From: Heterotrichella gracilis | Lineage: Eukaryota; Sar; Xanthophyceae; Tribonematales; Xanthonemataceae | DNA: 55,353 nt | Direction: 5' to 3' | NCBI GenBank assembly: GCA_032358255.1 | Contig: JAULBX010025818.1 | Coordinates: 1-55,353 of the forward strand | Shown: positions 20,792-51,660 of the stretch, one piece after another | Numbering within the stretch: the stretch's first letter is position 1 | Layout: every line of letters begins with the position of its first letter | The notes under the pieces: generated by a model | Databases searched by the model: none | Seen by the model: only the letters and a program-made list of their open reading frames with translations | What the model was told of the DNA's origin: nothing | Program-made: the position numbers and the translations under genes

Positions 20792-22420
<1,629 letters not shown>

Positions 22421-23300: not shown

Positions 23301-26300
23301 TCACAGCTTCCTCACAGGGCTGAACACTGCTTGCTCCTCGGGAGAGTCATACACTCTGCGGCTGGACTTGAGGTCTAGACCTGGGGTCAGGTCTACATCG
23401 GCCCTGGGCGTCTGCTCCCGGCTGGAGAGCTGCTGGGACGGGGTCCTGCTTACATCCTCACCGCTGCCCTCGGCGCCTGGCAGTGGCTGCCCCTGATCCC
23501 CTGCACCCATAAAATAAGGATGTTAACAATGTGGCAAAATGGTTTAAAAATGTGGACAAGTACTGGGGCCGATTGCGCAGCTGTACTTGATGGCGGATGG
23601 CAGCTACACTTAGGCTGCCTTTTCCAGACAAGCGCGTCACACAACAATGTACACATTGTGCTAGGTGCGTGTGCAGTCCAGCTTCAGGTGCATGTAGGAG
23701 AAAATTAACAAGGGCCACCCTATCTTAGAGTTCTGACTGCTCTTACCATGATCTACCCCACCCACAGGGTGCAGGGGAAGTGCAGCCCTCCCCTTGGCTG
23801 TCGCTCCCTTTTGCTGCCCCGGCTGCTTTAGCCCCCCTGGGTACTGCGCAGGGGAGTCGTACATGAGGGAGAGGTTCCGCCTGGGGGAGGGGCCTGGCGC
23901 CGGTGGTGGCGTGAGGGCGGGGGTGGAGTTGAGGCGGCGCACGGTGCGGGTGTGGGAGGGGGGAAGCGGGGGAAGCGGCGTGTGTGTGGCGGCGGCAGCG
24001 GCGGCGGCGGCTGTGGCGGCTGTGGCGGCGGCGGTGGTGGTGGTGGTGGTGGTCAGTCCCTGCTGCTCGTGTGCTGGTGTGAAGGTAATGGTGCAGTGGT
24101 GGCGGGCAGAGGTGGTGGATGCCAGGGCAGGCACCGTCTCTGCGGGAGGGGAGGGGGGAGGGGGGCCAGGGTAAGGGGGTGCATGGGGTAATTGTGGGGC
24201 CACAGAGGGGATGACAAGGCGCTACGGCCCACCAGACCATAAAAGACAACCTGTTCCAACCACCTGCCTACGCATCTTTGCCACCCAAAGCGGCATACAG
24301 TACACCCCACACGACCAGTTGCATGCCACATATGTGATCTAGAAGCTTGCAACATCCCTAAACCCTGGATCCACATTCCTAAACCCTAGTCACCCACCCT
24401 GGTCCAGCTCCCCATTCAAGCTCAGCCGCTCCTCCCAGGTGCGCCTCAGCCCCTCCCCGTCCTCCCAATCAGCCCCCTCCACCCCCTTGGGGGCAATGGG
24501 GGTGTCTGAGCGGGTGCTGCTGCGGGTGCTGGTGGAGGTGGTGGGGGGGGTGCCGGCCTCGGAGGGGTGGGTGGGGGGTGCGTGGGTGGAGGGGCGGGGG
24601 CTGCGGGGGGGTTGGGGGCGCCGTCGCCGGCTCATGAAGAGCGCGAGTACCGCTGCAAGAAGAGATGGGGCGATGAGCAACTTGTATTAGATAATAATAT
24701 ATTATATAATAAAAAGAGATTATATAATAAAAAGAGGGGAAGATAGCAAGGGGAGGAGGAACGAAGAATGGGGATGGAAACGATAAAGGGGCGTTGGCAG
24801 TGGATGGGAAATGTTTGCCATAAGTGAGATGTGCTGAGCAGGGGCCCTTCATGACTACCTAGGCTGGTTACACAAGGAGTCAGAGTGCAAGAGATTCATG
24901 AACAGGAAACTGCAAGACTCTGTTCAAAACACGCCATTAGAAATTTTATGCAATATCATGTGATATGGAGAGGCGTGGACCCACCTAGCCCAACGGCGCA
25001 CAGCACCACAGCAATAATGACCCCACTGAACGCCCCCACGCTCATGCCCATGATGGTGGTGCCGCTGCTGCTGGTGCTGGTGGTGGGGGGTGCGGGGGCG
25101 GTTGGGGTGGGTGGGGTGGTGGCGGCCGTGCGGGTGATGATTGTGCACTGGCTGGTGGTGCCTGCAGTGGCGTAGCCGGTGGCGCATTGGCTGCAGTCGG
25201 GGCCCGTGTAGCCCTGCGGGGGTTGAAAACAGCAAGGTTTTATTACCATCTTAAACCAGTGGCATAAAGCCAGTGCGGAATCTAATACATTAATGGGACA
25301 CTCAGTCGCTGGTGGCGCACTGCGCTGCAGTAGGACCCAGTGTGCGCTGCATGGGGGTGGAAGTATCGTAGTTTGGGAATTCAGCAGGGTTTTAACAATG
25401 CATTGGCACTTGAAGTGCACCATGAAATCCCATGGATGTGTGTGGGTAGGGCATCCATCTAACCACCTATCCTGCAGCATCTTGTACCTCGAAGCATGTG
25501 CAGGCCCCGCTGGATGGCAGGCACCACCCCTTCCCGCCACATGGCACCGAATCCTCCTCCCCAGAAGCAGCTGCAGGGCAGCTGTGCCATGCCACTGGGC
25601 AGTCCTGCAGAAAACAAAACAATACATAACTAAATGCAAAGAATAGATGAACGCATCGTGAAAGTCATGTAGACACCCTCGTCCTTCAACAGGCACGCGG
25701 CACATGCGGGAAAAAAATGGCTTTTCTCATGGGGCATCGCTATCCTATTTATAAGAGTCAGAAAAGAGGCACTGTATCCAATGATACACAGCAATGAAAG
25801 TCACCACATGAAGGAGGAAAACGGATTTCCCAAGGGGTGATAACCTCGGGGGACGCCAGGTGGCGCATTGCTGGCGGTATGTCGGCCAAGTAAATGTAAT
25901 CAAAAGGTGGAAATGTCCCAATTCAGGGGGATTTACCTCGGGACACGCCAAGTGGCGCCTCGCTGGTGGCGTGTCGGCCAATGGCATCTCATCCACCTCA
26001 CACACCCCATTGCCACACAGGGGCATGGGCTCCACCGCAATGAGGGTGGTGAGTTGGGGGTTGGTGGTGTTGGGGGGGCTGGCGGCCAGGGCCTGGTGGG
26101 GGAAGGGGAGGGGGGGGTGAGGGCGGCGGGGGGTGCGACAAATGCCGATGCTGGTTTTATGCCGGTAAGTGCATGTATTAATTGCACGGGGTGGTCATCC
26201 AATGTGGGGCGCAAAGGTGGAAACACAGGAAATAGGGTGGGCGCTGGAACATGCCCCAAACCCTCCTGGTAGGCTTCAATGATACCACCCAGCTGCAACG

Positions 26301-29300
26301 GATGTATATATTCATTTTGTAAATTTTGACAGCCAGAGAGTTGATGTCACTTTCTTACCTGCATCTGCGCGGTAGCCATGGGCAGCGACACCATCTCCAG
26401 AAGCCCAGGCACTGCGGTGGGGGTGGCGGGGGCAACCACCACCACCGCCTCCACCGCCCCACCCACAGCCACCGACGACGCAGCCAGGCCCCCACCTCCA
26501 CTGGGGGCGGCAGCCACCCCCCCGGGGGGTCCCAAATACGTCACATTCAGCGCACTCTCGGGGACCCCCAGCGCGGCGGCCACAATCCCCAGCACCTCCT
26601 GTGCGCCCACCACCCATGCTGAGGTGGCAGGGGTGGGTGCTGATGTGGCAATTGCCACGCCAGGTGGCGGCGGGGGGATGGTGAGGTCGTAGATTGCGGT
26701 GATGGTGAGCGCGCATGAGGTGGCGTCCCCGTCGCACACGCCGCATGCGTCGAGAGTGCGGGATTCACAGCAGATGCCTGAGGCGTCCAGTGTGCCTGGG
26801 CAGCAGCGGCCTGCAAGGGATGGGGGGTTGAGTGGGACGGGTGGATGGGGTGATGGAGTGCTAGTGGAGTAGGGGGTGAGGAGAACCCTACAAATTTACA
26901 GCCACGTTGCTTCAAGAGGGATGCATCTGCCATCTGGAGAGGCGACACCCGGCAGGTGGCTGAAACCCTGAAACGCTAAGCAAAACCCTAGCAACACACA
27001 AAACGCTGATTGCTGATCCCTGAACCTGACAAGGCAATAGTGCACCCACCTTGGATGTCCACCACCACCGCCGACCCGCCGCATACGCCGCACACATCCG
27101 CCGCCCCTGCGCAGCAGCTCCCCTCCCCGTCCACCTGATTGCCCACCCCACAGCACTCCCCTTGGAGGGCGCTCACCACCCCACTTCCGCAGCACTCCCC
27201 ACCCGCACCCACCACCCCCGTGGCGCAGCCAGGCGGAACCTCGCAGAGGGCACCGGAGTATCCGCCGCCGCACTGGCATGCGCCATTGGCGCAGGCGCCC
27301 GCGCCATGGCATGGCGCGGCGAGCGCGTTTTGCTCGGTGCACACGTCGCATGGCGCGGCGTTGCATGTGGCGTTGGCGGCTGGCATGGGCAGGCCCTGGC
27401 AGGCGCTAGGGTCTGCTAGGGTTCCGTTGGCGTGGGTGCACTCGACTGTCCGCTGGGCTGTGCCGCCGCCACATGGCGCGCTGCAGGGGCCCCACTCGGA
27501 TGCCAGCCACAGGAAGGTTTCATCCAGGCAGGGCGAGGTGTTGCAGGCCATCTGCGGGAGGAACAATGGGTATCAGAGTCAAAGTACCAATGGGGGATTG
27601 ATTGGAAAATAGGAACTAACCACCCGCTAGCCGTAGCCGTAGTGGGATATTAGCGTCGTACGCTAACGTAAAATTAGCGCGAACATAGTCGTAAACAGTC
27701 CCCTATCGATCCATTTGGCTTCAGATAGGCTTAATTTTGCTAATTCCGCTAATTCGGACGTCGAGCGGCGAATTAGCGCAATTAGCGGAGTCGATGAAAA
27801 GTTAATTTTGGGCGCGAAATTACCACTGCGGCTACGGCTACGGCAGTGGTATATTCTAAAAGTAAATTTAAATGAAATTAATTTAAAGATCTGCATCATT
27901 AATTCCAACACAACACCCTACCCCTGTGTTGTCAAACGTGAGGCGTGGCATCCAAGTGCACGTGCCTGCAACCCCGCATACTTTTCACAAAATTGGCGGC
28001 AACAACTCCAGAGTTTTACATAGCGTTTTGCATAGGGCTTTTGTTTCCTTCCCCACCTGCATGTCTGCAGTGTCCACCGCCCCACAGGTCTCCTGGGAGC
28101 CAATCGCCACACAGGTGGTCTTGCGCTGCATCACCCCATCAGCCCCACACCCAGCACTGCAGCTCCCATAGGGTCCAAAAAGCAAGTAGGGCATTTCGCA
28201 AACTTGGGTGTTGCAATCTCGCATGGTGGCCAGGGGGCCGTCGGGGGTGGTCAAATCCGCCCCGCATGCCGAGGGGGCGAGAATTAGGCCCTCGGTTGAG
28301 GTGCAGAGCACTGTGCGCTGCTGGGTGCCCCCACCACACGCCGCGCTGCAAGGGGACCAGTCGGAAATGTAGATTTGGGAGGGGGGCAGGGCCGGCGCGG
28401 AAATGGGCCCCGGCGCCGGGGGCGGCGAGGGGGCGATGGAGGGCGCTGGGGCGATAAGGGGTGGGGGGAGGGGGCTGGCAGGTGGTGGGCTGGAGGGGGC
28501 TGGTGCTGGTGCTGCTGAGGTGGGTGTGGGGGCTGGTGTTGGTGTTGGGACGGGGATGGGGGCGGGGGTGGGGGTGGTGGGGGGTTCTGATTGCGAGGGG
28601 GCGGGGACGGGGGGCACCCGCGGTGGGGGCTGGCGATGTGGGGGTGGCACAACTGCAGGAAATGCACACAAAATAGGTCAACATTGTGCCCAGGTGTATG
28701 TCTGATTGTATTGCTTGAATCCAAGTTGAGGGCGTGAATCAGGGATGTAGTATATTTGTTTGGTACTCTTCTATGGCGATAGAAAAGGGAATGGGAATGG
28801 GTGGGGTTACCTTTGCGTGGTGGTTGTGGTGATGGTGGTGCAGGGTGTGCAGGTGGTGGGGTGGGTGGAGCTTGGGCAGGTGAGGGCGGGGCAGGGAGTG
28901 ATGGTTGTGCTGGTGCTGGTGGTGGGCGAGGGGATGGTGGTGGTGATGGTAAGCGGGGCAGTGGTGGTGATGGTGGTTTTGATGATGGTTTTGGTGATGG
29001 TGGTGGTGGCCGTGGTGGTTGTGGTCGTGGCAATGGTGGTGGTTTTGGTGATGGTGCCGGTTGGGGTGGTGGTGGCCGTGGTGGTGGATGTGGTGATGGT
29101 AGATGTTGTCGTGGGGTTGGTAAATATGGTGGTGGCGAATGTGGTGGTGGTGGATGTGGTGGCAATGGGGATGGGGGTATTGGTGGTGATGGTGATGGTG
29201 GTGGTGGTTTTAACGGTGGTGGAGGTGATTGTGGTGGTGGTGATTGTGGCTGTGGCTGTGGCTGTGGTGGGGGATTGGATGGAGTGCGCAAGGGTGGGGG

Positions 29301-32300: not shown

Positions 32301-35300
32301 CACATTCCGGGTACCCCCCATGGCGGTGGGGTGGTCGCTGGCGGGGTGGTCCCGGATGTGCCCCCAGGCCCCACTGGACTGGAGCACCGCCACCAGCTGG
32401 AGGGGGGTGGTGGTGGGGTGGTGTTGGAGGTAGAGGGCCATGGTGCCGGCCACAAGAGGGGCGGACTGTGAGGTGCCGGAGCGAAGCCTGTGCAGAGGGT
32501 AAGGGCAGGGTGATCACAAAGAAATGAAAAGGAAAAGGCTGTAATGGTCAATGGTTTAGGCTGTTCAACTTCTTTGAGGTGATTTGTTCCCTCCTTTATG
32601 GAAATTTCGGGTGGGTGGTGGAGGTAGAGGGCCATGGTGCCGGCCACAAGGGGGGCGGACTGGGATGTGCCGGAGCGCAGCCTGTAGGGGTGGTAAGGGT
32701 TTAGGGTTTGCAAGTGGATAATGCAGCATCAAGTTTATTCGCCACGAATATTTTCCTCAAAGCATTTCTGTTCAATGCCAGATATTTGGACAAATCTGCG
32801 CCGACACCATTTTTTAATTTGAATGCCAAGTCGCAACAACACCAATCTAGGTTTACTCTAGGTTTTAGGTTCGTTCATGTTGTCGGCGCACAAGTACCCA
32901 AACATGTTCCATGTATCAACGAAAAATAGGTTAAACCGTTATGTAGCGCATTTAATACCATTATAGGAGGGAGGCGCTGGTACATCAGCTTTGTGGGATA
33001 TGCACAAAAACGCCACCTACATTGTCGCCGTGTCGGACTGGGAATCGGCGCTCATGATGTTGTGCCCCGGCGCAAAGACATCCACGCAGCGCCCGAAATT
33101 GGACCCAGTCCCGGGGTTCAAAAACAGGCGCTGGTCCTTTTCATCGATTGCACCCACTGTCACTGCCAGGGGCTCCCTGCAACGGGTGGTGGTCACTGGT
33201 TAGGGTTTGCAATCAGGGTATGCGAGAGGAATGCCCCATGCCAGGGTTCCTCCTTCCCCGCCACCACCACCACCACCACCACCCACCACCCACGGGGCTG
33301 GTGCCGGAAGCAGCTCCATCCCAGTTGCCTGCCATCACCACCACACCACCACCACCTCCAACACCACCACATCAGAACAGGGGGAAAACATAACTCCACC
33401 TCACAAGGCTGGTGCTGCACGCCTTCCCCGCCACCGCCGCCACCACCAGCAACCTCCTTTCACCAGCCGGCCCACCGCCACAGCCATTTCCACACCGTCA
33501 CCACCACCACCTCCATGACCACCACCACTACCACCGACCTAAAAAGTCAAATCCTCCCTTCTCAGTAAGGATTCCTCACCTTGCAGGACTGGTGCCGCAC
33601 GCATCCGCGTCCTCGTTCCCCGCAGCCACCACCCTCGCCACCGCCACCGCCACCCCCACCGCCACCGCCACCACCAAAACAAATCATATTGTCCATTCTC
33701 ACCTTGCAGGGCTGGTGCCGCACGCGTCCGCGTCTTCATTCCCCGCAGCCACCACCACGGGTACCCCCCTTTCCACCATCCGCGCAACCGCCAGATCAAG
33801 CGCCAGCTGCACTTGACCCCCCAGTGACATGACCACCACCGCAGGCTGTTCCGCATGGCCCGCTACCCAGTCTAGAGCCGCAGTTACCTGTGGAGTATAA
33901 TATGTTAGTTACGTACATGTACAAGAATTTACAGGAATTTCAATGGACAAGACAACCGCTGCAGGCTGATCCGCATGGCCCGCTACCCAATCCAAGGCAG
34001 CTGTCACCTGCGCCAGGGGGTTCAACATATTAGTTGGGTAAATATACAGGAATTACAAGGATTGTAAAGGAAATGACGACAATCGCAGGCTGTTCCGCAT
34101 GGCCCGCTACCCAACCCAAGGCAGCTGTCACCTGCGCCAGGTGGCAGACTGGAAAGAGTAGTGATGGCGCCTCCAAAATACATTTGACACTTTTCTTACC
34201 CCTCAAAAAGTGCTATGTTATAAAAGCCATATAAATAGAATGCGGAACAGCTGCGCTTTTGCCCTCTCCCCAGTCTAGGGCAGTTGCGGCATGCGCCAGG
34301 TGGGTAATTAAAATTGTAACTTTTGTAGCATCCACTAATCCGCACACATTTACAGTAAGTGAATTTTCACCGGCGTCACCTGACTCAGGACACAGGATAA
34401 CATGACTGACCTGGGTGGAAAATGCAGGAAATTTGCAGGTACCCACCTGGGCTGCGCTGCCGTTGCCGTCGCAATCCAGGGATCGCACCGCATGCACTGA
34501 TGCGTTTTTGGCGACGCCATAGGTGAGGCCTGCCACGCTGGCTGCCACATGGGTGCCGTGGCCCTGTGAGGGGAGGATGCGTGTGGGTGTGTGGGTGGAG
34601 ATGGGGCCAGAGGATGGTTTGCACTTTTGACCATGCAACCACACAAAAAATACTGGATGAGTGTGTGCTGGATGCAGTATCGCGGCTCGTGGGCCAGAGG
34701 ACAGCATGGTGGTATGCTGGGTGCAGTGTGGTGTGCTGTACACGTCGATGCGCACAACCAAATCCCTGCTAGGATATCCCACGCCACAGGACCTTTCCCT
34801 TCCCCTTCCCTCCTCCTTCCTCCTTATCCATCCTCTAGCCCAACCTGGCAATCCTCCCCCTTGCTGCCCATCTTGGCGGTGCTGTACGCCTCATCAGACC
34901 CTAAATCCCATTCCTGAAACCCTAAAACCCTAAACCCCCCCACCTGGCAATCCTCCCCCTTGCTGCCCGTTTTAGCAGTGCTGTATGCCTCATCAGACCC
35001 TAAACCCCAAAGCCTCTCTCCCCACCTGGCAATCCTCCCCCTTGCTGCCCGTTTTAGCGGTGCTGTACGCCTCGTCAGCCCTCGATCCCTCCCTGCCATC
35101 GCTGAATTTGAACTCCCGATGGCTGCTGCGTATCCCCGTGTCAACGACATACACGTGCACCCCTGTGCCCCCGCTGCTGTAGGTGTACCTGTGCAAGTGC
35201 AGAAAAGGATGCCGTTTTGATCTTTGATGTCCTGAAATTGCTGCGATCCGTGGTCAGTAAGCATACAAATGGAAATTATTCATCGTTTCTACGTTCTCCC

Positions 35301-36986
35301 ACTGTCCCATGCCAAAGTCATGTCCAAGCCCATGCCGATGCCCATGCCCGTCAAAAAGGGTGGTCAATTCTCTATCATTTATTTTCTATTTTTATTTTCG
35401 TTACCTTCCATCCAGGGGCAGCGCCAGCTGGTCCAGTCGGTCCAGCCCCCAAGGGGCATTATCCTGGGTGGCAAGCGCTGAAACGGGGAAGTCGCGGTGC
35501 ACCGACTCCACCTGGTCCCCGTAGGCGCTCAGGAAGCGGAGCAGCTCAGGCTTGGTGAACTGCAGGGCGGGAAAGTAACATATTGTAAGAAATTCAAATT
35601 TGGAATGGGGAGGTCGCAAGCCCCCGACTCCACCTGGGTCCCAGGTGGAGGATCAGGAAGCGACACAGCTGAGGCTTGGTAAATTGCCGGAGTGAAAATA
35701 AAGGGGAAACCACCAACAATGAATTTTTTAAATGGATGGGATGCATGGCGAATGGCGCTCCCCCCCGCACCTGTGCACTGAAGCCTTGGAACACCGGTGT
35801 GCAGGTATCGAGGGTTTTGGGTTTTGTAATTTAGGGTTTAGAGTTCCTCACCTGAGCACTGAAGCCCTGGAACACCGAGTTGTATGTGTGCTCACACAGC
35901 CCGTTGAACCTCCCAGAGTCCAGCGCTGCCGCCTCCTCACACACCGCTTTTGTATCGACCCCCTTGGCCCAGATAACTATCCAGCTGCAGCATGAGGAAA
36001 CATAACATAAGCAAGGGAAAAGGCAAGAATAGCTTAAGCACACCTAGCGTGCAAGGATGGCGTGAGCATGGGCAATCGCAAGGTCTGGTGGTTAATCTCC
36101 AAGCTGCCAGCAGTACAGTGCGATAGGCAGTCAGCAATGGTTAACCATGTACATTGCTGCATGGTACCAACCTCTCTACTGGCTCTTGTACAGGGAGCGA
36201 GTCATCTGCTGACCGAATGGAAACCTCTCCCTCTTGAGTATCATCGCCGCTGCAGCACGGGGGGGAATGGTAAGAGCAACGCAGGCGGGTGCACGAGGCA
36301 TGTGTGTGGGGTGGCGGGTGGCGCAATAGGGGGTGGGCTGGGCTATGCGTGTCACAGCCTCTCACACACTTGCTGCAAATAAAGAGCACCTCGTGCTTTC
36401 CAGTAAGGTGTTCAACCAATTCATAAAGGACCGTGTATGTTGCTGGTTGCTGCTGTACTAATACCCTGCCAAATGGGCACCTGTGACTACTATGGGACAA
36501 AATGTCATGATTATCTAAGACCCCCTGGACCCCGCAAAACCAACCCTTCAATTTTGTTATGGCTTATAAACCTATATGAGAACGTTTAAGTGGGCCAAAC
36601 CAGTGGCGTGCCCGTTTAATCCACTGCGGTGCAGGGTGACCACATGCCATACACCCCATGCCCCACGCCCACGCCAAATTGCATGAATACAGCGAACCCA
36701 CCCAAACAAATAGCAGCGTTCAGCATACATACCTGCACCACCCATAGACAGGAGGCAGCCCTTTCTTGACGAGCTTTTGGGATGCATCGCATCCCGGTCT
36801 GGCCAGCACTGCCCTGGTGTGCGCCTGGTGGGCGTGCGTTACGACCCCAGACGCCCCCCATCCACCCGCTACCAGCACCACCACCAGCACCCAGACGCTT
36901 GTAGGTATGCAGGGCTTCGGTTGGGGCCGTCTGCGGCTTTTGGCCACCGCAGGCCGGTTGAGGGGGTCGTGGGATCTGCCCCACAT
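23301..36986 (-). CDS. Membrane-anchored subtilase with PPC, TSP1 and EGF-like modules
   Basis: 23 exons, ends: 36986-36733, 36249-36172, 35984-35852, 35559-35405, 35188-35026, 34563-34447, 33887-33703, 33176-33021, 32487-32247, 31869-31588, 31391-31287, 30967-30749, 30506-28811, 28652-28057, 27551-27050, 26810-26359, 26292-about 26250, 26092-25937, 25604-25488, 25213-24985, 24652-24398, 24139-23747, 23500-23301. All phases match except the end of exon 17. About 2,240 residues: signal anchor ([14 protein letters not shown]), I9-like propeptide ([17 protein letters not shown]), S8 domain with Asp223 (VVDTGI), His266 (GHGTHVA), Asn350 (AAGNED) and Ser420 (GTSQSAP). Then a beta-rich region, a PPC-like domain ([18 protein letters not shown]), a Pro-rich hinge, three TSP1 repeats ([34 protein letters not shown]), CGNGVCE...CPEDC and EGF-like modules, one transmembrane helix ([20 protein letters not shown]) before SRRRR, and a cytosolic tail of about 285 residues. 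Probable extracellular processing or cell-wall protease. Algal hatching enzymes are subtilases, but this architecture is not one I know. Confidence 0.85.
24000..24062. repeat. Trinucleotide tract in subtilase exon 22 (poly-Thr/poly-Ala)
   Basis: A ggt/ggc trinucleotide run encodes, on the minus strand, seven Thr then Ala-rich repeats in the cytosolic tail. It is in frame with flanking coding sequence and likely length-variable. Confidence 0.7.
25302..25350 (-). repeat. Decoy copy of subtilase exon 20 start
   Basis: On the minus strand gggtcctactgcagcgcagt-gcgccaccagc matches the start of exon 20 (gggcccgactgcagccaatg-cgccaccggc). The copy is out of frame (a TGA follows) and lies in intron 19. 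Confidence 0.45.
25843..25890 (-). repeat. Decoy copy of subtilase exon 18 end
   Basis: [15 protein letters not shown] followed by gttatc repeats the functional exon end [15 protein letters not shown] followed by gtaaat, about 90 bp downstream in the gene. The Cys needed for the CPEDC motif is lost in the copy. Confidence 0.65.
27619..27850. mobile_element. Foldback/MITE-like element in subtilase intron 14
   Basis: A left end (accacccgctagccgtagcc) and the reverse complement of the right end (accactgccgtagccgtagcc) form imperfect terminal inverted repeats about 230 bp apart. The interior is AT-richer and itself foldback, with many ttagcg/gctaa words such as tccgctaattc against gcaattagcgga. 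No coding capacity and no clear target-site duplication. It is consistent with a non-autonomous DNA transposon. Confidence 0.6.
28811..30506 (-). other. Subtilase exon 13: 1.7-kb proline-rich hinge exon
   Basis: One exon encodes the end of the PPC-like domain ([20 protein letters not shown]), then a repeat region built on [17 protein letters not shown] and [18 protein letters not shown] Cys pocket follows ([20 protein letters not shown]), then several hundred residues of Pro with Ser, Gln and His, including three [14 protein letters not shown] repeats and an uninterrupted Pro run. Such tracts are typical of hydroxyproline-rich algal cell-wall proteins and would act as a rigid spacer. The complementary strand is an open Gly/Val-rich frame by composition only. 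Confidence 0.8.
31021..31086 (-). repeat. Decoy copy of subtilase exon 12 start
   Basis: [22 protein letters not shown] repeats, with changes, the exon 12 start ([22 protein letters not shown]). It lies about 116 bp upstream in the gene, in intron 11, next to gggtgtagggtgtaggg words. Confidence 0.65.
32090..32245. repeat. (CCA)n satellite in subtilase intron 9 with decoy exon end
   Basis: About 150 bp of near-pure cca/ccaccac repeats separate the real exon 9 donor (DPPSIT|gtgcgt) from a second, changed copy of the same exon end (VDLPSIP, about 32110-32130). Confidence 0.7.
32604..32681 (-). repeat. Second catalytic-serine exon start (decoy or alternative)
   Basis: After the acceptor ctacag at 32682 the minus strand reads [20 protein letters not shown] in the same phase as functional exon 9 (from 32487). 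The copy then ends HHPPEIS without the rest of the exon. It keeps the Ser motif GTSQSAP intact, so its splice acceptor could compete with that of exon 9. Confidence 0.7.
33291..33640 (-). repeat. Three decoy copies of subtilase exon 7 end
   Basis: The exon 7 end ([15 protein letters not shown] plus donor gtgaga, 33703) recurs at 33580-33630 (near-perfect, donor gtgagg), 33402-33450 ([14 protein letters not shown]) and 33291-33345 ([17 protein letters not shown]). All lie in intron 7 with cca-rich spacers. Decay increases with distance from the functional copy. Confidence 0.7.
33841..34303 (-). repeat. Tandem array of subtilase exon 7 starts (functional plus three copies)
   Basis: The word gcaggctgttccgcatggcc starts at 33841 and recurs with small changes at 33961 and 34085, so units are 120 and 124 bp. 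A fourth, more diverged copy lies at 34240-34303. On the minus strand they read [17 protein letters not shown] (functional), [32 protein letters not shown] and [15 protein letters not shown]. The first three units include the same intron piece (ttcctgtaaatt/ttcctgtatatt). Confidence 0.75.
34846..34998 (-). repeat. Two decoy copies of subtilase exon 5 end
   Basis: [17 protein letters not shown] plus donor, the end of exon 5 (35026), recurs at 34945-34998 and 34846-34900, offsets about 82 and 99 bp. The copies are joined by ccctaaaccc/ccctaaaaccc words. All three are nearly identical at the nucleotide level, so these duplications are recent. Confidence 0.8.
35602..35800 (-). repeat. Decoy copies of subtilase exon 4 start and exon 3 end
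   Basis: 35690-35602 repeats the exon 4 start ([10 protein letters not shown] against [10 protein letters not shown]) and then loses frame. 35800-35770 repeats the exon 3 end (VFQGFSAQ plus donor gtgcgg). The functional edges are at 35559 and 35852. Both copies lie in intron 3. Confidence 0.65.
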
Positions 36987-38095: not shown

Positions 38096-41000
38096 TCACT
38101 CGACCTTGAACAGCAAGGCCGCCTGCCGCAACTCCTCTTCGGCCTCAGCAGGCACCACGTACTGCTTTGCGTGGGTCAGGTCGATCAGCCACAGGCGCAG
38201 TGACCCCGCATCCCCATGCCCACTGGCCACCAGCACATTCCGCGTGGCCAGGTCCCCGTGCAGTAGCCCCACGCCATGCAGCGCCCGTACAGCCGCCTCC
38301 AGCTGTGGTCTCAACGCCACGTGCTCGAGCTTGCGGGGGTCTAGCTGCTCGGCGTTGGGGATGTACTCTGTTGCAAAGAACACTGCACCCTTCATCGTGA
38401 CGCCTGCAGCCACCACATTGGGCAGCACAGAGCCCTGCACCATATAAGGCGGTCCAGTCAACCAGCCACTTGCTGCCACCAGTAACATGAAGGGTCCACA
38501 CATCTCAGGATATATAAATAAGGTCATTCTTTGCAAAATTGCAAGCAAAAGTGTATGAGGCAATGTTGGATAAACAAATGGGCAACATGCATCAATTCTT
38601 GCCTGCAGAGTATGAGCCCTGCTGTATGCCCATATTTCCTTGTGGATGTACGGCGCCGCATCACTCTCCATGTGGCTCAGCTTGGCAGCGGCCTGGCAAC
38701 CGCATGGCATCCTGCAAAGCACAGCAATAGCTCAGTTGCCACTTGACAGAGCAGACCCAGGTGCCGTCTTATATTGTTATTATTTTTAATTCATTTTGAT
38801 TACTATATTTGATTTGTTATTGAGAGTTTTTTCCCTCCCCGACTTTGTTTATAACATACTGGCAGTGCCTGGTACGTTGCGGTGAGGATGGTGAGTGTGT
38901 GTGCTGCATACAGCGCAATGGGCTGGGATACTGGTACAACGTACATACCAATGCTGATGGACTCACATGCAGCAGCGGGTCAAAGGCAAGTGCATGGTAA
39001 GCCAACTGGTCTCTGTACAATGTACGCGTGCACTAGTGCACTACGCAGTACTACTCACGTAGTACAATCCACGCGTGCACCCATGAAGATGTGAATGAGC
39101 AGACCTGGCAATACTCTGTGCACTCCCTCACCTCCACTGGAACACAGTGCCAGTGATCCCACTGCCCACAGCCCCCGTCACATCTGCCGCTCTGAACGAG
39201 GCTGCTGCTGCTGCCAGCGTGTCTTGATGGTTGGTGTCACCCGCCCAGCACCAGGATGCGTGCGCACCCACACCCACACCCATGCTGCTGGCAGGCGAGG
39301 TGCTCTCCGTGACCCGCGGCCAATCACCATCTGCAGTCTCCCCACGGACTGCACCGGCTAGGGAGGGCGGGTGGAAGCTCTGCTGGGTGATGTGCAGGTT
39401 GGCGCGGTTGTGTGCTGGGCCGTGGTGCGTTGGATCATGTGCCAATCCAGGTTGGTGTCCCTGCCTAGAGTGGCCAGGTGGCAGTGAAGGGGAAGGGCCA
39501 GATGGCAGTGAAATACCAGGCTGACACCCACCAGGATGACGTCCATCGTCCTGCCGTGGGCTGTTACCACGCGGAGGCCCTCTGCTGCCTGCTGCTGCAC
39601 GGAGGCGGTCAGCATCGGCTATCCCCAACTCAGAGACGTAGTGGAGCGTCTGCACAGAAAGCACGTTCTCAAGTACATTCTATATCATCACAACACTGTG
39701 CAATAAGCTTGTAATGATGATAGTAATAAATGCCCCTTGCTCCTTGCTCCTTGCTGGAATAATAAAAAATATTTAAAAAATATTAGTGCAATAAGCTGCT
39801 GCACGAGCAGCGACTAGCAAGCAGAGGCGAGCAGGGGTGTCTGCACAGTGAGGCCAAACCATGAATGAGCAACGTTGTCACCCACCGCCAAGAGAGTGGG
39901 CTTCTTGGAATTGCACTCGATGGGCTTTGAGATGTGGATCTTGTAGTCAAAGTCCTGCTCCTGCTCCTCCTCCACCTTCATGAAATAGCTTTTGAGGTAG
40001 GTGCTCAGCACAAGATACTTGACGCCGTGATCCACCCCGTGATTCACGCACTGCACCACATCAGCGGGACTCAGCCACTGGCACATCCACCCTTACATAC
40101 GATGCCGATGGACAGACACAAAGCAAACACATAGACCAACACCATTGACCAACATAAAGTACCTGGTGCACCATTTTGAGCGCCCTCTTGTAGATTGCCT
40201 CTTCTTTTCTCCCCGCATCGCGCAAAAACTCTGCCAGGTTCTCTAGCATCTTTACAAAAACCTCCCTGTCGCATGGACTTTGTAAGAACAAACGTTACAG
40301 GTGGTTCCACAGCTCATAGTAGCTCTGCAAACCCACACACTTACCAGCACTGGCACACGCCAATAGCAGCTCTACGAGGGTGGGAATAGTTCCTTGGTGC
40401 CGTCAATGCCATGTATGGCTTCAGCTTTCCCGTTTGCGTTGTCTCCTGTGCCGCCGCCGCCTGAATAATGGACTGCACAGCACAGCAAAATAAATAAATC
40501 AATATCTACGCAGCCTGTCCGTGAACAGGCGCGTTGGTTAAGGAAGAGGATTGAGCGGAAAAAAGGGCATGGCCCTTCTGTCCACTGTCTCCCCTACCAT
40601 CACAGCACAGCACATAGCACACGTTTCACTATTGTGTTTCCCTGCTTGACAGTAAGCACAGGGCATGGCCAAGGCTTAAAACTGGTGCTGCGTAGTTACA
40701 ACCAGTTACAACCAGTTTAAATTGTTGTGCATAGCAAGCGTACCTCCAAGGTGGAGTTTGTAAGTGCGGAACATTGGTGGTTCACAGTCCAGCAGTACTC
40801 CGAATCAATGCACATGGAGACCTTCTTCGCTGTCTTGTCAAGCAAGTATAGAGAGGAGCCCTCACCAGGAGCTTGCTGCAGAATTGAACAGTGGTGAATG
40901 GGGGGTTTCTCTGTGTTGGGGCTTGCACCAGTGCAGCAAAAGCCTCACCTTGCCATACCCTGCGAAGTCTGGCAGGGTATACATACTGCGGCCTGGTGGT

Positions 41001-42415: not shown

Positions 42416-43480
42416 AACCACGACGTACTCGATGCCAGCTCCGTTCGACGCACTGCGCCGCTCACCAGGACCTCCACACCACAGCTTGTGCATCCGCTGA
42501 CACAGTACCCCAGCACTATGTGCCACTGTGCACACACCTCCTGATTGGCCCCAAAGCGCGTGCGAAGCTTGCCCCTGCGTCAGAGAATGTTGAGAAGCAT
42601 GGCGCGGTCTGTTTTGGGACACCCTCCGCTGCAAAAACAAGTACGCATATGCATGCATGCATCGGTAGTCAGTTCAGTCACCCAGCAATAACGGGTCACC
42701 AACAACCTTTTGCCCAATATCTCCTTTCATATATGGCTTGGTTCTCCGTTGACGTCTTCAAAATACGCGTTGCGTTTACATCGTGGCCACATATGGCATT
42801 TGCACTATGCTAGTGCGCACATTGTGCCGGCTAAAGCAGCCTCACATTTGAACCGTGCATTGCCATCCCTCCCACCGAAAGTATATGATCCCTCCACTCC
42901 CCTTTGATGGGTAGCAACGTCCCTCGGTCCCGCCATCTCGCGTCGCTCCACTCGCCACTGCCCATGTGCTTTGCAGATACCCACCAGATGCCTCCACCGC
43001 CTCACCAGCCCACAAGGCCTTTCCCCCTTGGGCCAACTAACCGCTATAAGACAGCTACAACCACAAAGGAAACCACAAAATGGCCCCAGACAACGCACAG
43101 CATGCACAGCAGCAGCAGTCTTGCAGCATGGGGAGCGGCAGTGGGTGTCGGAGCATGAAAGCTTGGAAGGAGGAAGGTGCGGGTGGGCGGCAGTCGTTTG
43201 GATTCCACTATACTTAATTTTAATTATAAGAAAGTTTGGCAATAATTACTGTATACCAAAAACACATGTTATCGATACAGCTATTTTAATGGCACGAAGC
43301 GGCCACACGCATCTCCTGGCCACTGTGCAGGAACTGGCTGCGCATCTCAGGGCCACCATGTTATAATCAGTATCCGCCACGGCCCTGAGCAAGCCGCACT
43401 TGCACACCTCAGCGGGCAAAATTAGCACATTTAATTTCTCCAAATTTGCATCCTCCACTCCCCGAATCCTCACTACCCGC
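42416..43480. other. Region upstream of the exonuclease gene, start exon not found
   Basis: The first coding exon of the exonuclease gene (organelle targeting sequence expected) should lie here or further upstream. Several short frames exist on both strands, but none joins the 43709 acceptor in phase with a convincing transit peptide. Confidence 0.35.
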
Positions 43481-43566
43481 AGGCTGGTCCCGAGCGATGC
43501 CATGGCGATCATCTTCCACACACACTTTGGCTATGCGGATGGCAACCGCCTGCGCAGCTCGGTGTG
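43481..43566 (+). repeat. Decoy copy of exonuclease exon (start), 228 bp upstream
   Basis: After acceptor acccgcag the sequence reads LVPSDAMAIIFHTHFGYADG and RLRSS, then departs (VCKVAT and a stop). The functional exon at 43709 reads LVLSDAMAIIYRTHFGYADG. The 140 bp of intron in front of each copy is also similar, so the duplicated unit is 228 bp. Confidence 0.75.
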
Positions 43567-43708
43567 CAAAGTTGCCACCATTTGAATATTACAATCAGTA
43601 CCCGCCGCGGCCTAAAACAACCACGGGCAAGACGTTGCACCTCAGCAGGCAAAGTCGCCACCAATTTTAATTAAAAACCAGCATTTTCTAAATCCCCACT
43701 ACCCGCAG

Positions 43709-45913
43709 GCTGGTCCTGAGCGACGCCATGGCGATCATCTACCGCACACATTTTGGCTATGCTGACGGCAACCGCCTGCGCAGCTCGGGGGGTGAGGACA
43801 CCACCATCCTGTATGGCTTCCTCAATGCCATGCTGGCGCTACTGGAGGCGCCCAATGCACCCACCCACATGGCGGTGGTATTTGACGCACCGGGGAAGAC
43901 TTTCAGGTGGGCTTGGGTGGGGCTGTATGTCATGGCGATATCTGGGCCGTATGCCATGGCTGTAAACTGTAAAAAGCACCCTCCCTGCAGGCACCAGCTG
44001 TACCCCGGCTACAAGGGTCAGCGCCCCGAGACCCCTGAGTCCATCACCATGGCCATTCCTAGGCTCCAGGAGCTGCTCAGGGCAATGGCGGTGCCAATCA
44101 TGCAGGTGGGGATGGGGGTAATCCAGTGGTGCAGTGTGGTGTGGGGGGTGGTATGGGGGCGGCTGCGCTTGGTCACTTGCACTCACCTTGAAATTAGAGT
44201 GATGTGCCTGTTTAAGCATTGGCACCATTCATCCCCTGTTTTTGCAACCCAGCATGTCCACATCATCCTAAATGTTAGCATTCTCCCCCCCCTTCCAGGT
44301 CCCCGGCGTAGAGGCGGATGACACCATCGGCACCATGGCCAACCGGGCCAGGCTGGCGGGCATGGAGGTGCAGATCGCATCCCCAGACAAGGTGAGCAAT
44401 GCCTTGGCCAAACCTTCTGCAATAAAAAACAATGGTACTGAGAAGAATTTTCATTGCCTATTTTACCCATTACATATTTTTGCCAAATGCGTAGCAAAAC
44501 TCACAAATTACATATGAAGCAATGGTGCCCACCCCATGCACAGCTCTACCCCCACCCCCACCCCCCATGCCCCCCGCAGGACTTCTTCCAGCTGCTCCAG
44601 CCCGGGGTGCAGCTGCTGCGGGCGCACCTTACAAAAACCTAAATCCTAAACTCTAAACCCTAATCATCTCCTGCAGGACTTTTTCCAGCTGCTCCAGCCC
44701 GGGGTGCAGCTGCTGAGGGCCCCCAAGAAGAATGGGGCTGCCTCGATCCAGAGCTTTGCGCTGCAGCCGTACGGGGAGGAGGACTTCAGGTGGGCCCAAC
44801 TTTGGACCCTAAACCCAAACCCTAAACCCTACACCAAAAATCCTGGATGGGGCGGCGTCCATTCGGAGCTTTGCGCTTCAGCCGCACGGGGGGAAGGACT
44901 TCAGGTGGGCACAGCCCTAAATCAAGGCACGTCTTTGCTCTAGAAATCCTCTTTCCTATTCCCAGCATGGTGGTTAAAGCTGGTGAAAACGCCAACTGCC
45001 GGTGTGTGGGTGCAGGCAGGAGTGGGGTGTTGAGCCCAGACAGTGGGTGGATGCCCTGGCCCTCAGTGGCGACGCCAGCGACAACGTGCCTGGTGTGAAG
45101 GGGGTGGGGCTCAAGACTGCACTGGAGCTGCTGGGCAGGTTTGAGACCCTAGAGGGGGTGCTGGAGCATGCGCAGGAGGTGGGTGGCGTTGGGGTGTGGA
45201 GGTGGAATCGTACGCTGGCGTGGGTGCGCTTTTGTACATTACTGCCCGACAATTCGCCTATCGATAGCAGCATGCATTCCTCCCCTTTTTTCCAGGTGAA
45301 GCGCAAGAACCAGCGAGAAGCCCTTGCCTCCCCCCTGGGTGTCGCTTCTGCCCAGCTGAGCAAGCGCCTGGTCACCCTGTGCTCATTTTCATGTCACCCC
45401 CACCCCACCTCACACCCGTCCTGGTGCAGCGCGGGACCTAGTTGCTGTCACCCCCTTTGCAACAAAAATGCCTCCCCCATGTCCAGGTGAAACGCAAGAA
45501 CCAGCGAGAAGCCCTGGCCTCCCCACTGGGTGCAGCTTCCGCCCAGCTGAGCAAACGCCTGGTCACCATACAGACCGACCTGGACATACCCCCTGTCAGG
45601 TGCGCCACAGAACCCTAAACCCTAAACCATAATGCACCCCTGATCCAGATGTAACCTGACTGTATGTGGGTTGTGCAGGGCCCAACTGGATATGCTGCGC
45701 CTCTGGGGCAGCTAACCACACCCCTAAACCCTAATATAGGATCCATGTAACCTAACTAACCCAGCTATGTGCAGGGCGCCCCTGGATGAGCTGCGCCTGG
45801 TGGTACCCGCCGATGGGGGAGCGGCTGCAATAGAGCTGCTGGCCAAACTGGATTTCCGGGTGCATGCGGAGCGACTAGGGGCGCTGTGGAGGAATAAGGG
45901 GTTTAGGGTTTAG
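43709..45913 (+). CDS. 5'-3' exonuclease of the PolI/FEN class, probably organellar (5' end missing)
   Basis: Exons: 43709-43906, 43991-44105, 44299-44391, 44677-44789, 45016-45178, 45487-45599, 45775-45913, phases matched, about 278 residues from the first exon seen. The sequence follows the bacterial PolI small-domain/plant organellar exonuclease pattern: YGFLNAML, HMAVVFDAPGKTFRHQLYPG, KGQRPETPES, VPGVEADDTIGTMANRA (metal Asp), SPDKDFFQLLQPGVQLLRAP, EWGVEPRQWVDALALSGDAS, DNVPGVKGVGLKTALELLG (H3TH motif and metal Asp). Family role: removes RNA primers and flaps in plastid or mitochondrial DNA replication and repair. A targeting peptide is expected upstream but was not found. The stop TAG lies inside a TTTAGGG-like repeat. 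Intronic decoy copies flank five of the seven exons. Confidence 0.85.
44580..44904 (+). repeat. Decoy copies around exonuclease exon 4
   Basis: 44580-44625 repeats the exon start (DFFQLLQPGVQLLRA after acceptor cccgcag), then runs into ctaaaccctaa. The functional exon is 44677-44789. 44845-44904 repeats the exon end (WGGVHSELCAS out of frame, donor cttcag|gtgggc). The spacers contain accctaaaccctaaaccc-type motifs. Confidence 0.75.
45296..45380 (+). repeat. Decoy copy of exonuclease exon 6 start
   Basis: After tttccag the sequence VKRKNQREALASPLG, then ASAQLSKRLVTL repeats exon 6 (from 45487, offset about 191 bp) and keeps frame, but departs before the real donor. Near-identity indicates a recent duplication. 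Confidence 0.8.
45679..45715 (+). repeat. Decoy copy of exonuclease exon 7 start
   Basis: After ttgtgcag, ggcccaactggatatgctgc corresponds to ggcgcccctggatgagctgc at 45775. The copy then hits a stop and a ccctaaaccctaat spacer. Confidence 0.6.
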
Positions 45914-46030
45914 GGTTTAGGGTTTAGGATCTAGGTTTAGGGTTTGCAGTGCATGCGGACCCGGGGCACTGACAGTGTCGAGGAAGGGGGTTTAGGGTTT
46001 TAGGGTTTCAGGGTTTAGGTTTTGTAGGGC
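45900..46030 (+). repeat. Interstitial telomere-like TTTAGGG tract with two exon-end copies
   Basis: Four consecutive gtttaggg-type units begin at 45901, with further units near 45989 and 46013. Between them, gtgcatgcggacccgggg (45949) and gggcatgtggagcgcctgg (46027) are diverged copies of the exon 7 segment gtgcatgcggagcgactagg (45862). Confidence 0.8.
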
Positions 46031-46402: not shown

Positions 46403-46501
46403 CGCTCGACAAGCCTCTGGCGACGGGTAGGTGAGATGCAATGTAGCAAGAGGGTGCACCCGAGTGGCGGTCCAGAGCGACAACTGGCACACACGCCAGC
46501 G

Positions 46502-47028: not shown

Positions 47029-47029
47029 T

Positions 47030-48039: not shown

Positions 48040-51000
48040 ATGCAGACCCGCTACGCACCCACCGAGCGGCTATCTGGCAGCTCCTGGGCCTCCTCAGAGC
48101 GTGTCATGGTGGGCATGCCGTCACGCGCAACCACCTTCAACACCGCCACGTCGGGAGAGGCCAGCTTCAGCACGCCAGTCCACAAGGTAGGGTTGCTGTG
48201 GGGCTGGCTGTGCATACACTTTGTGTGGCATGTGCTTAGGGTGTAGGGTGTGGCGTTTAGGGTTTTAAGGTTGACCAGGGTGTGCACCATGGCTGGTTGG
48301 TGAGGCGAGGCGGTTGTGCACCACCTCCTTAAACTCCGAGACGTCGGGAGAGGCCAGCTTCAGCGCGCCAGTGCACAAGGTGGGTGATGCAGGACTGGGT
48401 GTGTAATGTGGGTGTGGGTGCGGCAGGTTGTGGGGCAGGTTTGGTTGCTGTGGGGGCGGGGTGTACAGCGTGGCTCGGGGGTAGGCATAACCCTTAACCC
48501 TAAACTGGCTGTGCGCCGCCACCTTCAACACTGCCACATCGGGCGAGGCCAGCTTCATCGCGCCAGTACACAAGGTGGGTGGTGAGGGCGTGGTGTGTGT
48601 GTGTCTGTGTAGAGAGAGGGGGGGGGGCGGGGGTGTGGATGTGCCTGCGGGCTGGTTCCACATGCTGCACTGCAGTGTGCAGCCGAAGGTCCAGCTGATG
48701 ACAATGGTTCCACTGGTCCGTTGTGTTGTCCACCGAGAAGCCCCCACACCAATGAAACGTACAATTTCTGCACAGCTATTCAATATATGCTTTTTCATAT
48801 TTCAAAAGATGGTGATTCTTGTTGCAGGTGGACTGGAGCGACTACAACTACCCTCCTTTCATCAATGTGTTGCACTACAATGCCTTGGATATCGAGGTGC
48901 GCATGCCCATCATTCACAGAATAGCAGAATGATGATGAAAAACCCATCATGCAGCACGTTTGGATGTCGGTGCTTGGGGGAAGTACTTGGAGATTTTAAT
49001 TTAAAGTGGGGTATGATTTGTTGGGATTCCATCTAGGACGTACATCAACACTCCTTTGTACAAATCACTGTCGAAGTACACCTGGCCAATGTCAAATGCC
49101 ATGTTTTGTAATTTCTGTTATGCGTTGATAAGTACTTGGACTGGCAATGGTGAGTGTGCTCAGGGCAGGCAAGTGTAGAGAGTCCTGGCTGTAGTCACCT
49201 CACTACAATTCCACACGGGTGCAGGATGTCGCTGCCAGGAAAGCGGTGCGGTTAGCGCACTGGAACTACATCGCAACGGTTATGATACTGGTGGCTAACA
49301 GTAGGTCCACCGCCAAACTACTGACCCATGCACCATGCTGCCTCCACTGGTACATGAGGGCGTGAGGGGCGGAGTTCCAGACTGCCTGTTTTTCTTACCT
49401 GGCTTGCTTGATTAGCAGCAATCCTCTAAACGTGCTGCTTTATGCAAAACATGCTACCGGCGCCATGTAGGTAAACTGTTCTGTTATCCAGTGGTAACTC
49501 ATGCAATTTTGTGCGGTGCATGCGGGCGTGAAGTCACATGAGTTTTCCATTGCCGCGGCATGCTATCCATGATGTGCGACTGACACCACCCTGCACCATC
49601 ATCGCAGTCTGCGCAAAAAAAATATAACCCTATGCTCCAACCCCTAAACCCTATGCCCGCAGTCTGCGCCACGTGCGCCCTGTGGGCGGGAGGCGTGTCC
49701 AGCAAGCGGCTTCCCATCGTGTATGCGGTGTTCAACCTCATCATCATTGCTATAGTGGGCATGTACGGGTTCTACCAGGGGTACAAGGGGATAGCCACCG
49801 AGAACAAGCGCCAGACCAACAACTACCTCATCGTGCAAGCGGTGGGTGCTATGACCTCTGTTGTGCGTGCGGGGGTGCAGTTGTGGCGTGGGCGGTATCC
49901 GCACCATGGTAGCTGCCACTGCATTGCATCGGCAGTGGCTGCATTTGATTGCCTGATGCTCACGCACACACTGGCCATGGCAAGGAGGGGCACTGCTCAC
50001 GCTAATCTGGCTGTACTGCAACCCATGTAAGCAAGTACAGCGCAGGTCATGTCCCTTCGTCCCTGGATTGCATGTGGGCGATGCCAGTGTAGCTAGGGTA
50101 ACAGGGGACTCCCAGCATTGCCTGTTGCAGCTGCTTCTGGTTTTTATCCTGGCGCCACCTGTTTTGCTGGAATGCATGCACTGCTCCCTGCGCCTGCACT
50201 GCACTGCCGCAGAGCCGATTCCTGTGACAGTGCAGTGGAGCGCACGGGTTCAGGGCATAAGCTCGAGCAAAACAGATGCACCAGCATAATACCATCTGCC
50301 GCTGCAACAATGTGCAGCAATGCATGGCATTGTGCAGCATGTCCCTCCATCCCTGAAATCTGTAACCCTAAACCCAAACCCATGGTGCAGTGTGTCCCTT
50401 CATCCCTGGGCCGCATGTGTCGATGGCCAGCTGTTCACACCCTGAATGCCAGCATCACTCTGCGCCATGCGTTTAGGGTTTAGGGTTAACTCTGCACCAT
50501 GGCTTTAGGTATAGGATTTAGCCGCCAACTCCTGGACCGTGGCTTTAGGGTACAGGGGTTACTTGTCAGCTGCTGACGCCCCGTGTGCCTGTTGCAGCTG
50601 CTGCTGGTGTTCATGCTGGTGTCGTTTAGGGTACAAGGTTTACTCTTCACCATGGCTTTAGGGAAAACAGCAAGTTTTAGCCGCCACCTGCTGACCCGCC
50701 TGTGTGCCCTGTTGCAGCTGCTGCTGGTGTTCATGCTGGTGTCGTTTGTGTTTGGCGGCTACTCGAACTTCAACGGGCTGACGGGCCTGGTGCAAGCGCT
50801 GGTATGGCCAAGGCATTGGGGTTGTTGCTTTGCGCTGTGTTTTGGTGTCGACGCAGGACTCATTAGAGACGAAGGGCTGTTGGGTGGAATGAAATACGGA
50901 ATTCAGTAAGTGGAATTTCAATTGTACTGCTGTGATCGGGTGTGCTGTCGATTGCAGGATTCCCAAGAGATGAAGGACTTTTGGGTGGCCTGGACAGCCG

Positions 51001-51526
51001 TGGAGTCAGCGCTGTGGTTGGCAGACCTGTGCTTGGGCACGGTGGCCTGGGTGCTCATGCGCAAGGTATGTGTTGGGGTGTAGGGTGTAGGGTGTAGGGT
51101 TTCTGTGGAGTCAGCGCTGTGCTTGGGCGCGGTGGCTTGGGTGCTCATGCGCAAGGTATGTGTCGGGGTGTAGGGTGTAAGGTTTAGGGTTTCTGTGGAG
51201 TCAGCGCTGTGCTTGGGCGCGGTGGCTTGGGTGCTCATGCGCAAGGTATGTGGGTGCTGGGTAGAGGTTTCAGGGGCTAGGGTTTCTGTGGAGTCAGCGC
51301 TGTGGCTGGCAGACCTCCCCTTGGGTGCTCATATGCAAGAAACATGTGCAAGAAACGTGTATACTACTGGGTGTTGCATGATACACGCATGCCACCACAG
51401 TGGCTACTTGCGCCTGTGCAGAACCTGGGTTTAGTACCCAAAACCCTACAACCCTAACCGGCTGTTTGTGTGTGTGTGCAGAACCTGCGGAACAGCAGGC
51501 CTGTCGTTGGGCTGATGACCATTTGA
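48040..51526 (+). CDS. SCAMP-like four-helix secretory-pathway membrane protein
   Basis: Exons 48040-48186, 48828-48896, 49225-49300, 49663-49841, 50718-50801, 50958-51065, 51482-51526, phases all matched, 235 residues then TGA. After a hydrophilic N-terminus (MQTRYAPTERLSG...) come YNYPPFINVLHYNALDIED, helix 1 (YIATVMILVANICATCALW), helix 2 (LPIVYAVFNLIIIAIVGMYG), a YGFYQGYKGIATE loop, helix 3 (LLLVFMLVSFVFGG), YSNFNGLTGLVQAL, and helix 4 (ALWLADLCLGTVAWVLMRK). The order, the PP-containing amphipathic segment and FNGLTG resemble secretory carrier membrane proteins, which act in post-Golgi and endocytic vesicle traffic. It lacks the N-terminal NPF motifs and coiled coil, so 'SCAMP-like' is as far as I go. 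Introns contain about a dozen decoy exon-edge copies. Confidence 0.65.
48318..48574 (+). repeat. Two decoy copies of SCAMP-like exon 1 end
   Basis: The exon 1 end TSGEASFSTPVHK plus donor gtaggg (48186) recurs as TSGEASFSAPVHK plus gtgggt (ends 48379) and TFNTATSGEASFIAPVHK plus gtgggt (ends 48574). Both have good donors but no obvious acceptor, and spacers carry accctaaac words. Confidence 0.75.
49605..49616 (+). repeat. Decoy start of SCAMP-like exon 4
   Basis: cgcag|tctgcgc occurs at 49601-49611 and again at 49658-49668, where the functional exon begins. The spacer contains cccctaaaccctatgcc. Confidence 0.5.
50131..50900 (+). repeat. Decoy copies before SCAMP-like exons 5 and 6
   Basis: The exon 5 start (ctgttgcag|CTGCTGCTGG, LLLVFMLVSF) appears at 50131 (LLLVFILAPP), 50598 (LLLVFMLVSFRVQG) and the functional 50718. 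A decayed exon 6 start at 50857 (gactcattagagacgaagg) precedes the real one at 50958 (gattcccaagagatgaagg). tttagggttaac and tttagggta words fill the spacers. Confidence 0.75.
51000..51345 (+). repeat. Four-unit tandem array at SCAMP-like exon 6 end
   Basis: gtggagtcagcgctgtg occurs at 51000 (functional), 51105, 51195 and 51288, so units are 105, 90 and 93 bp. Units 2 and 3 keep the donor atgcgcaag|gtatgtg and read VESALCLGAVAWVLMRK. Unit 4 has lost the donor. Each unit junction is a tagggtgtagggt/tttagggttt tract. Confidence 0.85.
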
Positions 51527-51660
51527 CCCGCGGGATGAGTGCCCCCCACGGGGTTTAGGGTTTAGGGTTGTTGGGCTCACGACCACATGACAGGCGGCAT
51601 GTAAGGAACCCCCGAGTTCTTTGGCTGCTGCGCTGATGACCACATGATACAGGGCCACTA
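51418..51660 (+). repeat. Copies around SCAMP-like last exon
   Basis: A truncated exon start (gtgcag|AACCTGGG) at 51420 precedes the functional one at 51482. Two copies of the exon end and 3' flank (gttgggctgatgaccatttg) follow near 51570 (ttgggctcacgaccacatg) and 51628 (tgctgcgctgatgaccacatg), joined by gggtttagggtttagggtt. Confidence 0.65.

Follow-up and report, generated by a model that had tools for sequence, protein, structure and literature searches.

Why would introns carry fragments of the very exons that they separate? The question is raised by a 55,353-bp stretch of DNA, the entire contig C330 (hereafter, the window), from a 68.5-Mb eukaryote assembly of 903 contigs. The initial annotation had reported over 30 partial copies of exon starts and ends in the introns of three unrelated genes between 24985 and 51660, start copies lying upstream and end copies downstream, and had read them as traces of an ongoing tandem duplication process and perhaps of an unusual splicing system. 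A link between these copies and telomere repeats is absent from that account. We find that edge copies go with telomere repeats in the genome interior, which suggests that staggered breaks patched with telomere repeats have lengthened introns in this green-alga-like genome.

Direct repeats and exon edges in the window

Self-comparison of the window (copies at most 600 bp apart, at least 36 bits, self-palindromic hairpins excluded) returned 34 close repeat pairs in direct orientation and none inverted; a looser search (within 3 kb, E 1e-3) returned 34 direct and six inverted pairs, four of the latter being self-palindromes. Local direct duplication is strong and one-directional, and tandem duplication across exon-intron borders, as first described, is supported. 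The interval 24985-51660 holds 26 of the 34 pairs, with a copy spacing of 80-230 bp in 18 of them; five are simple-sequence or short-period repeats (one at 29909, four between 33248 and 33793), leaving 21 candidates in place of the more than 30 originally counted. Duplicate copies share about 67 to 100% identity, which is compatible with a process that continues. Nor is the pattern confined to the window: ten unselected 6-kb regions elsewhere (60 kb in total) contain 20 direct pairs vs one inverted, and edge copies recur in chaperonin introns, described below. The spread among the unselected regions is uneven, 12 of the 20 direct pairs coming from a single region, L065 (C445:10001-16000), which is unusually rich both in close direct pairs and in telomere segments, of which it has 14.

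How do these repeats relate to gene structure? The seven exons of an exonuclease gene, joined with one copy per duplicated edge, give a single continuous frame, and the protein can be aligned along its length with proteins of Micractinium, Trebouxia and Coccomyxa; the best-scoring proteins are 55-58% identical, and the named ones come from green algae such as Micractinium. The gene and the features around it are listed here.

43709..45897, plus strand: 5'-3' exonuclease gene with a PolA-type exonuclease domain (joined-frame reading and homologue alignment)
43709-43906, 43991-44105, 44299-44391, 44677-44789, 45016-45178, 45487-45599, 45775-45897, plus strand: exonuclease exons (5' start and exact stop provisional)
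43465..43562, plus strand: copy of exon start 43691-43788 (edge match 43471-43527), upstream of the first modelled exon; no telomere motif in the spacer
44573..44623, plus strand: copy of the acceptor and exon-4 start (44670-44720), 94% identical
44653..44663, minus strand: telomere-type segment (CCCTAAA on the plus strand) between the two exon-4-start copies
44806..44831, minus strand: telomere-type segment between the two exon-4-end copies
44847..44913, plus strand: copy of the exon-4 end and donor (44732-44798)
45276..45376, plus strand: copy of the acceptor and exon-6 start (45468-45567); spacer without telomere motif
45611..45628, minus strand: telomere-type segment in the intron holding the exon-7-start copy
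45672..45702, plus strand: copy of the acceptor and exon-7 start
45722..45734, minus strand: telomere-type segment between the exon-7-start copy and exon 7

A small membrane-protein gene, a subtilase-like gene and other parts of the window contribute the following.

50588..50627, plus strand: copy of the small membrane-protein exon start at 50718, identical over 40 bp
50846..50887, plus strand: copy of the membrane-protein exon start at 50958
51103..51339, plus strand: array of copies of an exon end and donor (from 51012), period about 90 bp, with G-rich telomere-like sequence in the units (by eye)
51181..51192, plus strand: telomere-type segment within this array
32609..32699, minus strand: upstream copy of the subtilase-like segment 32416-32505, 88% identical; either copy may be the working exon
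32696..32709, plus strand: telomere-type segment at the edge of this copy
34917..35007, minus strand: two telomere-type segments within duplicated units 34832-35089
35830..35841, plus strand: telomere-type segment between copies 35765-35796 and 35846-35877
48125..48598, no strand assigned: duplicated units with telomere-type segments at 48255-48265 and 48496-48505

Each exon edge was compared with the adjoining intron or neighbouring stretch alone; when exon edges were set against the introns of other genes, a score of 30 was reached in one of 526 comparisons. On this scale, four of the six internal exonuclease introns and both introns of the membrane-protein gene hold a copy of an adjacent exon edge. 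Edge copies in the window are verified in six introns and at three further places (43471-43527, 50588-50627 and 32609-32699), a single exon of the subtilase-like gene having been checked; the supposed copy of the exonuclease exon 7 end is not significant (score 22, null maximum 24) and that of the membrane-protein exon 3 start is weak (score 26, null maximum 21). Two side observations belong here: by eye, the last exonuclease exon seems to enter a telomere block at 45883-45925, which would supply its final residues and stop codon, and a thrombospondin type 1 repeat lies on the minus strand at 26991-27572, in the subtilase-like gene region.

Introns of genes chosen without regard to repeats

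Because the exonuclease and membrane-protein genes had been named in the finding itself, and are to that extent biased, three chaperonin genes were taken from a Pfam search of the organism's own genome, chosen before any repeats were inspected. Their introns are the gaps between profile matches, the gene models resting on these matches and on homologues rather than on transcripts. Edge copies occur in four of the 18 introns (2/7 in L106, 2/6 in L107 and 0/5 in L108); one gap in L107, 770 bp long, may conceal an exon, and no other copy among the ten copy-bearing introns scores as low as the one in this gap (33). When the three chaperonin loci were compared with themselves, no case appeared contrary to the reported polarity, in which start copies lie upstream and end copies downstream. 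As a further control, a GAPDH gene in the window (20822-22420) has neither edge copies nor telomere words in its three introns.

Do the copies mark splice sites that attract duplication, or introns that were newly made? Exon-end copies that appeared by eye to stop 5-17 nt past the donor had suggested targeting to splice sites, an idea dropped because in L107 and L038 the similarity runs on into the faster-changing part of the intron. At L038, an exon end with its donor is present in three copies, a telomere block lies inside the 104-bp unit, and in two of the three copies a second donor-like GGTAGGTG or GGTATGTG follows the block. Creation of new introns was rejected as well: none of the ten copy-bearing introns shows the crossed-edge signature (a copy of the right exon's start at the 5' end of the intron and of the left exon's end at its 3' end); their copies are interior, away from the place where a new intron would put them.

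Telomere repeats between the copies

What are the telomere-type segments? Eleven contigs carry arrays of at least seven exact TTTAGGG units, each array terminal or nearly so and in telomere orientation: six are at left ends and read CCCTAAA (starting at base 4-7 in five contigs and at base 138 in C712), and five are at right ends, as TTTAGGG, verified against the contig end position; in 10 of the 11 contigs the array lies at most 7 bases from the end. Since long arrays are confined to contig ends, TTTAGGG is the organism's own telomere repeat, and it also makes up the interior blocks, which lie away from chromosome ends; the genome encodes TERT and Ku domains. Shorter runs are widely scattered: with overlaps and contig ends counted, three exact units occur at 834 places genome-wide vs none for the reversed motif, and two exact units at 5629 vs five. 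Within the window, words of ten bases from the TTTAGGG repeat begin at 125 positions, against 0-4 for each of 19 other units with equal base composition.

The surroundings of these blocks were compared at 86 distinct three-unit sites, drawn from the first 100 of the 834 places (89 loci fetched, three near-duplicates removed), with telomere letters masked, 220 bp taken on each side and a score of at least 30. Direct repeats flank the block at 40 of the 86 sites, and inverted repeats at none; at 24 sites, both copies abut the block (at most 20 nt away), and in the clean loci L024, L028 and L053 the order is copy, telomere units, copy. When flanks were paired between different sites, 0.1% of 3000 pairs matched, with no abutting case among them. 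Among 2958 mock centres drawn jointly from the window and the unselected regions, 167 are flanked and 13 abutted (Fisher 2e-25 and 6e-30, values that are indicative because mock centres overlap). Counted by region, flanked and abutting centres number 66 and 5 of 1482 in unselected DNA, 155 and 21 of 1476 in the window and 32 and 8 of 497 in the chaperonin loci, the background being higher in the window than in unselected regions. An earlier test inside the telomere-site loci (300 bp) gave 18/47 sites vs 32/282 mocks; at scores of at least 80, it gave no clear excess (2/47 vs 6/282). At the threshold used, 46 of the 86 sites have no flanking repeat, and among short unselected motifs (at least 12 nt) two of ten are flanked and none is abutted; fewer copies at short motifs would fit a greater age of these, yet the shortfall weakens the claim of a telomere link.

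The copies at the 24 abutting loci are 24-197 bp long (median 33.5) with identities of 0.75-1.00 (median 0.91). An assembly artefact is an unlikely source, because most copies differ by several percent and the telomere link is seen on contig after contig. At 12 of the 24 loci the 100 bp beyond the copies contain no further exact nine-base telomere word (10 loci for eight-base and 8 for seven-base words); the remaining 12 have a further such word, vs 7% of unselected 200-bp stretches, and with seven-base words a further motif lies near 16 of the 24 vs 22% of unselected stretches. Roughly one half of the abutting loci thus look like single insertions that duplicated their target, and the other half, with a second motif close by, may instead reflect exchange between motifs; at L038 and in L106 (181-bp unit), the repeated unit contains the motif or begins with it. 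The junctions overlap the telomere register at 12 of 24 loci on one side and 9 of 24 on the other, a control-free count with a ceiling of 6 nt and borders blurred by divergence. Also against newly created introns, open frames read through the 24 joined empty sites are no longer than at random positions (null median 108 aa).

Does the link extend to introns with edge copies? In five gene models with 26 introns, two of which (exonuclease and membrane protein) come from the finding itself, an edge copy is present in 7/7 introns with a nine-base telomere word vs 3/19 without (Fisher 1.8e-4); in the chaperonin introns alone, the figures are 3/3 vs 1/15 (Fisher 0.005), and adding the GAPDH introns brings the motif-free class to 3/22. 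Intron length confounds this table, since introns with a motif are the longer ones; the abutting test is free of that dependence. No nine-base telomere word occurs in the 31 exons, the last exonuclease exon being trimmed just before its telomere block. The lengths of duplicated units at the 24 abutting loci divide evenly modulo 3 (8, 8, 8), hence frame imposes no constraint, and none of the six frames stays open through the filled site at any of the 24.

Possible origins of the edge copies

How might telomere repeats and duplicated exon edges come together? We think it fairly probable that the edge copies are fill-in duplications made during end-joining of staggered breaks, telomere repeats often serving as filler; the footprint to be expected of such joining, target duplication included, is found in the abutting direct copies (24/86 sites vs 13/2958 mocks). 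In this mechanism, whose order of steps we infer, opposite-strand nicks separated by tens to about 200 bp would leave long single-stranded ends; both ends would be filled in and then joined, so that the stretch between the nicks is duplicated directly; and (TTTAGGG)n, added by telomerase or captured before joining, would form the block between the two copies, with later exchange between copies or motifs able to add further units. Telomere repeats bring stop codons and all 24 filled sites are closed; events in exons should therefore be lost, while those in introns or over one exon border would be tolerated. When an exon start is duplicated, the downstream copy would stay functional, and when an exon end is duplicated, the upstream copy would; the non-working copy would then fall inside the intron and be removed with it, the outer splice site still joining the correct exon parts. 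The reported polarity would arise because the outer copy is the functional one and the other is left in the intron.

Introns in the models are 67-770 bp long (median 233) and duplicated units about 50-230 bp; for the observed unit and intron sizes (nine cases, two of the unit lengths hand-estimated), 44-99% of tolerated duplications straddle one border. Since units rival intron length, most tolerated events would straddle an exon border, and the exon-edge pattern therefore needs no attraction to splice sites. By this simple geometry, the special splicing system that had been entertained is not needed for the pattern. A bolder claim, that telomere joining into staggered breaks is a major repair route and a main engine of intron lengthening in this alga, we regard as possible and somewhat short of an even chance. 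If true, exon edges and splice sites would be copied repeatedly into introns, and spare splice sites would always be on hand as possible raw material for altered exons.

Could the motifs have come first? A lesser, still appreciable chance attaches to a scheme in which unequal exchange or replication slippage tandemly duplicated the DNA between or beside pre-existing telomere motifs. Arrays of the form copy-(motif-copy)n, at 51012-51339 and in L035, speak for it, as do the repeated units of L038 and L106 to which the motif belongs and the further motifs near 12 of the 24 abutting loci. Loci with a single block between the copies (12/24, or 8/24 with seven-base words) count against it, because exchange between two motifs does not give them. 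The second motifs and the motif-bearing units led us to raise our estimate for this scheme slightly and to lower that for break fill-in slightly; exchange between motifs, or separate events, may lie behind some loci.

It seems unlikely that ordinary tandem duplication and telomere insertion are independent, each accumulating in introns and other tolerant DNA. The motif-bearing introns are indeed the longer ones, 23 of the 34 window pairs are motif-free, and in the unselected 60 kb the link between spacers and the motif is not significant (6/20 pairs, 3.1 expected, 66 of 1000 shifts as high). Within the window, by contrast, 11 of the 34 pairs have a telomere motif in the spacer when 2.0 are expected, a count reached in none of 1000 shifts, and independence would not account for the excess of abutting copies over mocks.

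Insertion with flanking duplication is the hallmark observed, and a short introner-like element with telomere-like sequence and target-site duplication has to be weighed. We consider it highly improbable: the block consists of telomere units alone (22-43 bp among 43 sites listed), the duplicated lengths range from 24 to 197 bp, and flanks are hardly ever shared between sites. Target duplications made by transposases and integrases, by contrast, are generally of a fixed, short length. The comparison of telomere sites revealed neither a shared element body nor a target duplication of fixed length, the pattern by which introner-type insertions are recognized. Last, the idea that the duplicated splice sites are in use, as alternative or competing sites kept by selection, is close to negligible: several copies retain AG or GT (by eye), but border-straddling copies are expected from geometry alone, and the copy at 44573 reaches a stop codon (by eye).

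The ingredients of break fill-in with telomere filler, namely telomere blocks inserted at breaks and repeats left by staggered breaks, are known; the density and the exon-edge outcome look new. In mammals, interstitial telomeric sequences inserted at double-strand breaks are described, some with a direct target duplication attributed to staggered breaks and, in human, none in exons (Nergadze 2007, PMC2246262; horse/human 2020, PMC7215372). Here too the blocks are short and interior, some have direct duplications and none lies in the 31 exons examined. The differences are these: the human genome has 229 blocks of at least four units, against 834 overlapping three-unit places in 68.5 Mb here, contig ends included; target duplication alone is given for 3/66 blocks in horse, 6/130 in rodents and 4/25 in primates, judged from empty alleles, against 40/86 flanked and 24/86 abutting sites here, scored by other search criteria and not from empty alleles; and the copies here reach about 200 bp.

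New introns in Daphnia have internal direct repeats ascribed to staggered breaks that lengthen introns, and repeats of 4-12 bp common to the intron and one adjacent exon; the main text of that paper does not use the string 'telomer' (PMC4202315). In contrast, the units here measure about 50-230 bp and come with both exon edges and telomere filler, and the ten copy-bearing introns give no sign of intron creation. Direct repeats of 4-30 bp near splice sites have been read as scars of intron insertion (Rogers and Bendich 2025, PMC11782384); those lie at intron borders, whereas the longer copies described here lie inside existing introns. Among the matches listed by a literature search with most subscription journals outside its range, none dealt with algae in which exon edges are duplicated and interior telomere repeats abound. 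In plants, staggered breaks repaired after paired nicking or by patches leave direct duplications that range from tens of bp to more than 100 bp; Schiml, Fauser and Puchta reportedly obtained tandem duplications from paired nicks in 2016, and Vaughn and Bennetzen are said to have described patch-mediated break repair in rice. We know of no tie between these duplications and telomere filler or exon borders.

Intron growth and the origin of spare splice sites have so far mostly been inferred from rare, old events. The scars described here are labelled by the telomere repeat, which allows them to be counted across the whole genome and dated from the divergence of their copies; should the proposed mechanism be correct, this species would offer a natural setting in which to study telomerase action at internal breaks and the way a spliceosome deals with duplicated splice sites.

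Some minor observations concern the assembly and the rest of the window. RuBisCO large subunit was not found in the assembly. At 12703-17192, two neighbouring stretches with long minus-strand frames are about 68% identical over 1.3 kb; one gives a leucine-rich-repeat match under the curated cut-off, the other none. A minus-strand open frame at 38099-38731 has a weak match to Kdo/WaaP-type kinases (26.3 bits vs a cut-off of 21.3).
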